DNA of 48,002 nucleotides. Source: Anaerolineales bacterium (GTDB taxonomy: Bacteria > Chloroflexota > Anaerolineae > Anaerolineales > UBA11858). The stretch is from NCBI GenBank assembly GCA_024763275.1, contig JANTFT010000016.1, positions 1 to 48,002 of the forward strand, in the 5' to 3' direction. Shown here one piece after another: positions 31,984 to 44,900 of this stretch. Position numbers and translations under genes: made by a program. Numbering within the stretch: the first letter of the stretch is position 1; the number at the start of each line of letters is the position of its first letter. The notes beneath the pieces are model-generated. The model had not been told where the DNA came from. It made no database searches and saw only the letters and a list, made by a program, of their open reading frames with translations.

Positions 31984-32160
31984 TGTCACTGCGAGGAGCG
32001 CAGCGACGAAGCCGTCTCTGGCCAAAGAGAGGAGATTGCTTCGCCCCTTCGGGGCTCGCAATGACATGGCCTTGTCATCGCGAGGGCGAAGCCCGAAGCG
32101 ATCTCCTGCACAGCCAGGTTGGAACTTGCTTCGCTCGCTAACGTTCACTCGCAATGAAAG
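31984..32160. repeat. Dispersed intergenic repeat cluster
   Basis: GTCACTGCGAGGAGCGCAGC, GGAGATTGCTTCG (32031-32043) and CTCGCAATGACAT (32055-32067), followed by an inverted related copy (GTCATCGCGAGGGCGAAGC), form palindromic units of a dispersed family. The same blocks recur inside the PEP-utilizing enzyme gene at 43049-43090 and, in part, at 41888. Fills the gap between two genes. Confidence 0.85.
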
Positions 32161-32175: not shown

Positions 32176-32634
32176 ATGCCCAGAGTCTCCCTCACCACCC
32201 CCGCCCCGGATTTCGAACTGACCGATTTCCACGGACAGCCCGTCCGGCTTTCGGACTACCGCGGCCAGCGCGCGCTGCTGGTCTTCAACCGCGGCTTTGT
32301 TTGACCTTTCTGCCGCGCGCACATGGCGCAGTTGCGCCAGGACTACGAACAATTCCGCCAGGCGGACACAGTCATCCTGGTCATCGGCCCGGAAAAGGTC
32401 GAGGCCTTCGCAAAGTATTGGGAGGAGAACGACCTGCCCTTTATCGGCCTGCCCGACCCGAAGCACAGCGTACTGAAACTGTACGGGCAGGAAGTCAACC
32501 TGTTCAAGCTCGGACGCATGCCCGCCATGGTCATTGTGGACGCCGAGGGCGTGGTGCGCTTCGTGCACTACGGCCACAGCATGAGCGACATTCCGGGAAA
32601 TGCAGAGGTGCTGGAGACGCTGCACATTATTTAA
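32176..32634 (+). CDS. Peroxiredoxin-like selenoprotein (in-frame TGA at residue 43)
   Basis: A 152-residue AhpC/TSA-fold protein interrupted only by TGA at 32302-32304. Upstream: VSLTTPAPDFELTDFHGQPV, LSDYRGQRALLVFNRGFV; downstream: PFCRAHMAQLRQDY, ..., LGRMPAMVIVDAEGVVRFVHYG. In this peroxiredoxin-like family the motif is FxRGFxCPFCR, so TGA stands exactly where the first cysteine of CPFC belongs, giving a UxxC redox motif. A perfect hairpin with its loop about 25-29 nt after TGA fits a bacterial SECIS. The ATG at 32176 has AGAGAGG before it. A simple Cys-to-stop mutation or read error is the alternative; an internal start at 32323 would lose the active site. Confidence 0.82.
32302..32339 (+). 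promoter_or_regulatory. Putative bacterial SECIS element
   Basis: After TGA 32302-32304, TGGCGCA (32324-32330) and TGCGCCA (32333-32339) make a perfect 7-bp hairpin, effectively a 5-bp stem with loop CAGTTG. Its position is within the 16-37 nt range known for SelB-dependent elements, and the loop contains a GU as in known ones. Confidence 0.6.
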
Positions 32635-41960: not shown

Positions 41961-42014
41961 TTGCAGTATCAAGCCAGGATATTTTTTCAAAATTCCAAAC
42001 TCAAGGAACCCACA

Positions 42015-44900
42015 TTGACCAATTCCTCCCCTCTCGTCCTGCCCTTCTCTCAAATCCGCACCGCTGATCTGCCGCTGGTCGGCGGCAAAGGTGCCAATCT
42101 GGGCGAAATGACTTCCGCCGGCTTCCCAATCCCCCCTGGTTTCTGCCTGACGACCGCAGCATTCCGCCGCTTCGTGGACAGCTGCCCGCAGGCCGATGCG
42201 CTTTACACCGAACTCGACGCACTGACCGCGGAAGACCTGGACGCAGTCCGCGACGTGGGTGCGCGCCTGCGGACGGCCCTGCTGGAGACACCCATCCCTG
42301 CCGATCTGCGCGCCGCGGCGCTCGACTCCTGGCAGTCTGCCGGCAGCAACGCAGCCTATGCGGTACGCTCCTCCGCCACCGCCGAAGACCTGCCGGGCGC
42401 ATCCTTCGCCGGTCAGCAGGAGACCTATCTGAACATACGCGGCGCAGACTCCTTGCTTGACGCCGTCCGCCAATGCTGGGCCTCTCTCTTTACTGACCGC
42501 GCCATCCTCTACCGCATCCAGAACGGTTTTGAGCACCGCCAGGTGGCACTCTCGGTAGTAGTACAGCAGATGGTTTTCGCTAAAGAATCCGGTATCCTGT
42601 TCACCGCTGACCCGGTCACCGGGCACCGCCATACACTGACCATCGACGCCAGTTTCGGGCTGGGCGAAGCGCTGGTCGGCGGGTTGGTCACGCCCGACAC
42701 CTACCACGTGGACAAGCGAACCCGCATCATCCTCGACCGTCAAATAGCTGACAAAAAAATCGGCATCTTCCCAGAAGAAGGCGGCGGAACCCATCAAATA
42801 GCTTTGGACGAGTCTCAACGGAACCAAACTGTCCTCACCGACCAGCAAATTTTAGCGCTGGCAGACCTGGGGTCAAGAATCGAAGCACATTATGGTCAAC
42901 CTCAGGATATCGAGTGGGCTATCGCACCCGTGTCCTTAGGAGATGCCCGGTGGTCGAGCAGCGCCGAGCGCAGCGAAGGCGCGTATCGAGACCCCGGCGG
43001 CGCATGCTCCGAGCGAAGCGTGGGGGAAGCAATCTCTCCCTCGGAGCAGGAGATTGCTTCGTCGGGTTTACGCCCTCCTCGCAATGACATTTTTATCCTC
43101 CAATCCCGCCCGATTACCTCGCTCTACCCCATCGAAAATCTGGGCTCCCCCGACGGCACGCTCCACATCTTTTTCAGCATGGGACACCAGCAGGGCATGA
43201 CTCGGCCGATGGCCCCTCTCAGCTTATCGTCCTTCCCACTGTTGTTGCCGATTGGCCGCAACCCTGATGGCTTCACAACGCCCTACCTGCGTTTCAGCGG
43301 TGGACGGATGTATGTTGACCTGACACTCCTCCTGCACCATCCTCTGCTGCGACGGGTGGTCTTCGCCCTGTTAAGCCAATTCGACATACTCGCCCCGCAG
43401 ATGTTCCGTGCCTTGATGTCCCGTCCGGAATTTCGGGCCAGCCCCTCCGACCGCATCCGCCTGCACCCGGCGCACCTGCGCTTCTTCGCCGGGATACTGC
43501 GGCGTGTTTTCACCGACGTCTGGCGGCGTGACTTGACTGGCTTCACCGCTCGGACAAACGTCATGATCGACGACTTCATCGCCGATTTCCGCAGCCGGCT
43601 GCACGCCGTCCCGCCCGGCAAACCCCGGCTACAGGCTGTGCGCGAGAACCTCTCCCGACTGGCCCCCTTCTTCCTCAACTGGGTACCCGAAGCCGCCGCT
43701 GGCGTTGCCGCCACGCACATCCTGCCCCGCCTGGCGCAGCGCCACCTCACACCAGAAGAAACCGATGCCCTCACGCTGGGCATCCCCGGCAATGTGGTCA
43801 ACGAGATGAATCTGGCAATTCGCGACCTGGCCGACCTAGCCCGCCAGTCCCCAGCGCTGGTGGCGCACTTCGAACATCTCAGCGACAAGGGGCATGCCTG
43901 GCTATCCGCCGCGGTGGAACTGCCCGGCAGCGCCCCCTTCCTGGACGCCTGGTACCGCTTCCTGGAAAAGTACGGCGCCCGCGGTCCATCGGAAATAGAC
44001 ATTGCCGCCCCGCGCTGGCACGAAGATCCACTGCCCCTGCTGCGCGTGATTGCCGGAAATCTGCAGGGCGACGCTGACCGGTACCGGACGCAATGGGAAA
44101 CCTCCGTCAGGGAGCGGGAAGCCAGCTTCGAGAAACTGCTGCGAACGGCAGGCCGCGGTCCGCTCGATCGGCTGCAGGTGCGGCTCTCCCGCCGGCTGTA
44201 CCACGTGGTCACTGAAGTTGGTGGCATGCGCGAGCATCACAAGCTCGCGGCCATTCAAGCGTTGTGGGAAGTCAAACAGGTGCTCTACCCCTGCAGGCTA
44301 GACATTCCAGTCCAGTCAGTTGGCGAGTTGGAAAACCTGTCCTCCGGAGAAACGGTGGCCGAACTACTGGTCAGGGCGGGCAAACTGGAACGCGCCTCAG
44401 ACATCTGGTTCCTGGAATGGCGTGACCTGTTCGCCATCTGGGACGATGACGCCACCGACTGGCGCGCGCTGGTCGCCCGCCGCCGCGCCGACCAGGAGCA
44501 CTACCGCAGACTGAGGCCACCAATTATCATCAGCAGTGATGGCGAGACACCGGCGGTGGGCTATACCCTGAAGGACATGCCACCTGGCGGACTGGTCGGC
44601 AACCCGATCTCATCGGGCGTGGTGGAAGGTGTGGCTCACGTGGTGCGCGACCCGCAGCGCGAGCAGTTGCAGCCCGGCGAAATCCTGGTGGCCGAATTCA
44701 CCGACCCCGGCTGGACGCCTCTCTTCATCAACGCCGCTGGCCTGGTGCTGGAAGTCGGCGGGGCGCTGACCCACGGTGCTGTGATAGCGCGCGAATATGG
44801 TATCCCGGCGGTGGTCGGCGTCCGCAGCGCGACTACAAAAATCCGTACAGGCCAGCGCCTGCGCGTGGACGGTCACCGCGGGGTGGTGGAGATCCTTTAA
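42015..44900 (+). CDS. PEP-utilizing/rifampicin-phosphotransferase-like enzyme
   Basis: About 961 residues from the TTG at 42015, which has AAGGAA 7 nt before it; the ATG at 41961 lies in a repeat. N-terminal ATP-grasp PPDK domain (LPLVGGKGANLGEMTSAGFPIPPGFCLTT, AVRSSATAEDLPGASFAGQQETYLN, ESGILFTADPVTGHRH, LQSRPIT). A middle region with FSMGHQQGMTRPMAPLSLS resembles rifampicin phosphotransferase. The C-terminal phosphohistidine domain has GGALTHGAVIAREYGIPAVVGV with the catalytic His. It uses ATP to phosphorylate a substrate. About 50 residues after QPQDIEWAIAP are encoded by an inserted dispersed repeat, in frame. Confidence 0.87.
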   Translation: MTNSSPLVLPFSQIRTADLPLVGGKGANLGEMTSAGFPIPPGFCLTTAAFRRFVDSCPQADALYTELDALTAEDLDAVRDVGARLRTALLETPIPADLRAAALDSWQSAGSNAAYAVRSSATAEDLPGASFAGQQETYLNIRGADSLLDAVRQCWASLFTDRAILYRIQNGFEHRQVALSVVVQQMVFAKESGILFTADPVTGHRHTLTIDASFGLGEALVGGLVTPDTYHVDKRTRIILDRQIADKKIGIFPEEGGGTHQIALDESQRNQTVLTDQQILALADLGSRIEAHYGQPQDIEWAIAPVSLGDARWSSSAERSEGAYRDPGGACSERSVGEAISPSEQEIASSGLRPPRNDIFILQSRPITSLYPIENLGSPDGTLHIFFSMGHQQGMTRPMAPLSLSSFPLLLPIGRNPDGFTTPYLRFSGGRMYVDLTLLLHHPLLRRVVFALLSQFDILAPQMFRALMSRPEFRASPSDRIRLHPAHLRFFAGILRRVFTDVWRRDLTGFTARTNVMIDDFIADFRSRLHAVPPGKPRLQAVRENLSRLAPFFLNWVPEAAAGVAATHILPRLAQRHLTPEETDALTLGIPGNVVNEMNLAIRDLADLARQSPALVAHFEHLSDKGHAWLSAAVELPGSAPFLDAWYRFLEKYGARGPSEIDIAAPRWHEDPLPLLRVIAGNLQGDADRYRTQWETSVREREASFEKLLRTAGRGPLDRLQVRLSRRLYHVVTEVGGMREHHKLAAIQALWEVKQVLYPCRLDIPVQSVGELENLSSGETVAELLVRAGKLERASDIWFLEWRDLFAIWDDDATDWRALVARRRADQEHYRRLRPPIIISSDGETPAVGYTLKDMPPGGLVGNPISSGVVEGVAHVVRDPQREQLQPGEILVAEFTDPGWTPLFINAAGLVLEVGGALTHGAVIAREYGIPAVVGVRSATTKIRTGQRLRVDGHRGVVEIL
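42945..43090 (+). repeat. Dispersed repeat inserted in frame in the PEP-utilizing enzyme gene
   Basis: The segment holds GGTGGTCGAGCAGCGCCGAG, GCGTATCGAGACC, then GGAGATTGCTTCG (43049-43061) and CTCGCAATGACAT (43078-43090), the last two identical to blocks at 32031 and 32055. It encodes about 50 residues between IEWAIAP and FILQSRPIT that the family lacks. Confidence 0.85.

Follow-up and report, generated by a model that had tools for sequence, protein, structure and literature searches.

In the window, i.e., the 48,002 nucleotides of contig JANTFT010000016.1 from an Anaerolineales bacterium which were analyzed here, the gene of a PPDK_N and PEP-utilizer family enzyme carries palindromic repeat DNA in frame at the tip of a beta-hairpin. 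As different repeats occupy the same hairpin in relatives, this single curiosity becomes a recurrent hotspot. We consider it likely, with a probability of roughly 85%, that the insert is exapted repeat DNA and that the hairpin tip is a permissive site where repeats survive and which was filled repeatedly across lineages. Two short palindromes, at least one of them dispersed in the intergenic DNA of the genome itself, would have landed in or been copied into the tip. Since its net length is divisible by three and its reading frame has no stop codon, the insert left the gene open, and translation of the repeat would give a hydrophilic, disordered loop that lies outside the fold and has a presumably near-neutral effect on the enzyme. 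The tip would be structurally permissive, with selection removing most other insertions, so that it would be one of the few sites where insertions survive; for this reason unrelated repeats would have entered the same hairpin time and again in different lineages.

Host gene and hairpin

The host gene and the hairpin have the following parts:

41961 to 44900, plus strand: intact ORF of a PPDK_N and PEP-utilizer enzyme (dikinase, PEP-synthase or rifampin-phosphotransferase-like), 979 codons from a TTG at 41961, true start uncertain
42903 to 42926, plus strand: first beta-hairpin strand, residues 305-312 (..QDIEWAIA), at the end of the ATP-grasp domain (AlphaFold2, pLDDT of the block about 91)
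42927 to 43088, plus strand: insert of 54 codons (PVSLGDARW...PPRND) replacing about three residues (DGE-type turn), as judged against the plain hairpins of the nearest relatives and of the paralogue fragment in the same genome
43086 to 43112, plus strand: second beta-hairpin strand, residues 366-374 (IFILQSRPI) (AlphaFold2)

The ORF contains the Pfam domains PF01326 (E 2e-98) and PF00391 (E 2.2e-24), both above cut-off. It is open through the insert, has a strong coding score, and retains the invariant residues of the family on both sides of it. None of the NCBIfam profiles passed its cut-off, PRK06241.1-3 reaching 895 bits (cut-off 945) and the Rph model NF041857 710.6 bits (cut-off 999). 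The preliminary description had called the gene rifampicin-phosphotransferase-like, which holds as a family resemblance. The identity as a rifamycin-inactivating phosphotransferase (Rph) was dropped due to the score under the curated cut-off.

The insert lies between DIEWAIA and IFILQSRPIT and adds a net of about 51 residues to the 10-residue hairpin of relatives, in agreement with the roughly 50 extra in-frame residues reported before; the span of 42945-43090 given at that time is replaced by the longer one listed above. The hairpin closes the ATP-grasp domain, so the insert indeed sits at a domain edge. In an AlphaFold2 model (13-row alignment, mean pLDDT 79.6) residues 317-364, between the two strands, fall below 50. 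The structure prediction proposed in the preliminary description thus suggests a disordered loop outside the fold. The alignment to the best solved relative, 5hv1, runs to residue 313 and resumes at 367, the break being the insert.

Plain hairpins were found in a genome of the same genus (DIEWAIADGEIFIVQSRPI, G002), in two others (DIEWAFAEDKFYLLQSRPI, G349; DIEWSIADGELYLLQARPI, G131) and in the second gene copy of the own genome (DIEWARAGGQTYQLQTRPI), a decayed fragment of a close paralogue (G000:C3:59753-60145, L232). In a parallel scan of the 400-genome sample from the same order, 108 canonical 10-residue hairpins were counted by hand. Furthermore, 80 distant homologues were fetched, 68 of them with a hairpin readable by motif. 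From the D to the residue before the Q, it measures 12-18 residues in 66 of the 68; the two longer ones (20 residues in L094 and 30 in L075, a haloarchaeal acidic loop) are both unlike these repeats. The same insert in distant lineages had been named as the observation that would speak against a repeat turned protein segment, and it was present in none of the 68 readable hairpins.

Repeat elements in the insert

Three repeat elements were located in the window:

42949 to 42993, plus strand: left palindromic element, imperfect (GGTGGTCGAG...GGCGCGTATCGAGACC; also GGTGGTCGAG..CGCGTATCGAGACC), unrelated to the right element
43025 to 43089, plus strand: right palindromic element (GGAAGCAATCTC..GAGATTGCTTCG..CTCGCAATGACA) with arms at 43026-43036 and 43050-43060, which form a stem in the fold
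31984 to 32158, no strand assigned: intergenic dimer of the right-half repeat family (sequence, blast matches), the copy named in the preliminary description

The insert is a mosaic of two unrelated palindromes, a left and a right half. About 22 nt at its left end (42927-42948) and 31 nt in its middle (42994-43024) matched none of the repeats seen. The right element is of the type TGTCATTGCGAGG..GAAGCAATCTC / GAGATTGCTTCG..CTCGCAATGACA and shares with the copy at 32.0 kb the blocks AGGAGATTGCTTCG (43048-43061 = 32030-32043) and CTCGCAATGACAT (43078-43090 = 32055-32067). The match of the right half to this intergenic copy alone is weak (E 0.025). It is more than chance, because a blast search of the genome with the insert found the right half at four other places with 83-89% identity (E 1e-4 or better, best 1.8e-7), and a genome motif scan found its core motif at about ten repeat loci, all intergenic except the insert and including 31984-32158. 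The earlier statement that the insert has blocks identical to an intergenic repeat 11 kb away is correct for the right half, 43025-43089, but not for the left half, which is a different palindrome.

In 448 kb of the own genome (coding fraction 0.874), seven of eight repeat matches are intergenic and one, the insert, lies in a gene. A search of this genome for the repeat inside other genes had been proposed; among the loci seen, only the insert copy is intragenic. These loci include a tandem-like array of GCAATGACA-type units with a spacing of about 38-39 nt (G000:C11:8749-9046).

Since the left palindrome occurs once in the own genome, it is relatives that show its dispersal. Its architecture recurs in three of them (G021, G035 and G055; L334-L336) with up to 87% identity (E 4.5e-8). 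Neither a target-site duplication nor an empty allele from the same species was found for the insert, the closest plain-hairpin homologue being 65% identical.

As a separate observation, an AhpC/TSA-redoxin ORF at 32176-32634 of the window (plus strand) contains an in-frame TGA in FVUPFC. It scores 82.6 bits against NF040769 (cut-off 120), and the own genome has a SelB above cut-off. By sequence, this ORF is likely a candidate selenoprotein related to SelL.

Occupied hairpins in related genomes

Scanning 400 genomes of the order with gap patterns revealed 16 hairpins with palindromic repeats in 15 genomes (10 and 6 from two scans), the reversed-pattern controls giving one match per scan; pattern matches in G264, G140, G016:C284, and G080 were excluded from this count. 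Including the window, 17 genes in 16 genomes are filled, with at least four sequence-unrelated repeat types. These counts are not full frequencies, since certain codon choices and loop lengths escape the patterns. The commonest type, to which most of the inserts belong, is CCCTCACC..GGGAGAGGGG..GTGAGGG. Among 18 genomes searched for it, ten gave 20-77 matches, five gave 1-13 and three none (G000, i.e., the own genome, G002, and G238, whose hairpin insert is a variant beyond the reach of this query); match numbers exceed copy numbers, because some palindromes were counted on both strands. The hairpin of G004 holds an AGGTGC..GCACC type with 24 matches in G004 and none in four congeners (24 and 28 matches of this type were counted in genomes), that of G016 a nested GCCCTGAGC..GTCGAAGGG unit, and the window adds two further types. 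In addition, a second hairpin of the same enzyme family, located after PDHYVV / PDNYIV, carries in-frame repeats of several types in G009, G013, G238, and G388 (L028, L030, L152, and L153). One of these encodes QIASPAARND, which is close to EIASSGLRPPRND of the window.

The independence of the insertions was assessed with a tree of 104 ATP-grasp domains (insert left out, quick search). This tree needs nine changes between filled and empty, seven of which are forced by starred branches. It was the inserts and not the tree that defined the groups; the one exception is a group of three rows, named once the tree had been seen. L026, with a loop of 16 residues, was scored as filled although its repeat nature is weak, and sits inside a filled clade; L029 (G004) is filled but was left out as too short, its contig beginning just upstream.

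An unlikely explanation of this pattern is one ancestral insertion into the hairpin, with successive occupants written over it by gene conversion among repeats. It would fit nine inserts of one subgroup, which form nearly one clade and mostly share the start WAY(L/I)PPS. A single insertion event within the window's own small clade also agrees with the data: the window, L008, and L163 can be held as one clade (p-AU 0.20), although their three inserts differ in sequence. However, a single clade of all 17 filled rows is rejected (p-AU 8.6e-7), and empty hairpins stand between filled ones on starred branches.

In-frame repeats are also found in other genes of the relatives. Among the best-scoring copies of the CCCTCACC type (L165-L193), UvrA (two sites), ValRS, IleRS, AlaRS, and GatB are hosts, as are QueG, dihydroorotase, an HdrA-like protein, an FGE-sulfatase, UbiD, and others. 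For QueG and for the FGE-sulfatase, two genomes each have the repeat at approximately the same position. A match to the family profile extends across the insert in UvrA (L166), ValRS, IleRS, GatB, QueG, dihydroorotase, a CoA transferase, and the FGE-sulfatase; for AlaRS and UbiD, the insert is located past the matched domains or between them. Among the best-scoring copies, 28 of 51 are intragenic, but the impression of a majority in genes was rejected as biased. In random stretches, genes hold 2 of 10 copies in G208 and 1 of 8 in the own genome, as against about 87% coding bases according to a simple custom gene caller. Since the random stretches show gene avoidance, insertion into genes is rare or filtered, and permissive hairpins would gather the survivors.

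The hairpin could instead be an insertion hotspot through the target preference of a mobilizing enzyme, beyond mere tolerance, as several families recurrently took one site and a second hairpin of the same gene as well. We regard this as quite improbable, because the families share no sequence relationship and the preference of one enzyme would thus fail to explain them all, and because the other inserts, e.g., in UvrA and tRNA synthetases, are in varied protein contexts. A Y1/RAYT transposase (PF01797) was rejected as the mobilizer; its genes occur in 19 of 20 genomes, including the repeat-poor G002, and the inspected flanks hold other palindromes or none. Other palindromic repeats border the Y1 (RAYT-like) genes L219, L221, L224, and L227, one example from the own genome being GGACTAAGTCC.

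That the insert sits in a decaying, non-functional paralogue is very unlikely: the family does decay here, as the fragmentary second copy shows, but the window gene has 979 stop-free codons along with its coding score and invariant residues. A chimera driven by repeats, which do break assemblies (this one has 98 contigs), is practically negligible, as the two flanks code for the same enzyme in a single frame and the pattern recurs in independent genomes.

Beyond repeat exaptation at a permissive tip, certain beta-hairpin tips might be standing entry ports, at which unrelated palindromes repeatedly turn into disordered loops, in housekeeping enzymes too, and some loops may have been retained because they serve, e.g., in partner binding or regulation. 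This extension is tentative and rather doubtful at present; if true, the clade would offer a natural experiment in loop gain. The independent, unrelated insertions at a single structural site make it possible to test directly whether fold tolerance or element targeting decides survival. Moreover, where proteins of such genomes have loops rich in PSP..GEG or IAS..RND, these may stem from repeats.

Comparison with known repeat systems and enzymes

In-frame palindromes are best known from Rickettsia, and similar ones are now seen in another lineage. The Rickettsia palindromic elements (RPE) are about 150 bp long with a conserved peptide (Ogata et al., 2000, 2002, as reviewed in PMC10969869). By description, the repeats reported here are alike in that several palindromic families lie in frame in unrelated genes and are apparently compatible with the fold. 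The insert itself is in frame without a stop and has homologues without it. The presence of one family in several genes of a genome, typical of RPE, was not seen in the own genome; other families show it in relatives. Unlike RPE, short unrelated palindromes combine here, and one site is repeatedly taken by unrelated families. The central view of the preliminary description, a repeat turned into a predicted protein segment as in RPE, is well supported by the intact ORF, the intergenic copies elsewhere, the homologues without insert and the predicted disorder, with two palindromes in place of one repeat.

Intragenic GTAG/CGTC-tagged REPs are short palindromes, mostly intergenic and at times in frame, including in uvrA and tRNA synthetases (PMC3733652, 2013). 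The CGTC tag often reads TGTC, and CGTC repeats lack a linkage to transposase genes (PMC3733652). Likewise, the TGTCATTGCGAG..GCAATC elements carry a TGTC tag, and the own-genome copies CGTCATTGCGAGG.. and TGTCATTGCGAGG.. of the right-half repeat follow the rule of a terminal CGTC (often TGTC/CCTC) by a stem starting with AT. In contrast to the stems of 8-9 bp with loops of 4-5 nt in those REPs (PMC3733652), a single L130 unit folds with a 5-bp outer stem. CGTC repeats were described in five phyla without Chloroflexi, whereas GTAG repeats include Chloroflexi (PMC3733652). Different REPs at about the same recB site in two Xanthomonas species are the only same-site case there (PMC3733652). Intragenic palindromes are thus already known, and the new part is one hairpin recurrently filled by several unrelated repeat families across an order. 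A partial literature search found no description of such a hairpin, no papers on such repeats in Anaerolineae and none printing the peptide PLGEGRG.

The repeats also resemble MITEs with in-frame fusions (PMC10969869; Coxiella, PMC5896051) as small non-autonomous repeats that can add codons; neither target-site duplications nor a parent insertion sequence was identified here.

Finally, the rifampin phosphotransferase RPH-Lm (PDB 5fbs, 5hv1; PMC4844700) has the same domain order and provides the best solved relatives of the window enzyme, but its hairpin is plain, without an insert. Its Glu297 coordinates Mg, and the Ala mutant stays active (PMC4844700). This residue presumably corresponds to the Glu of DIEW, which would fit the tolerance of change at this hairpin.
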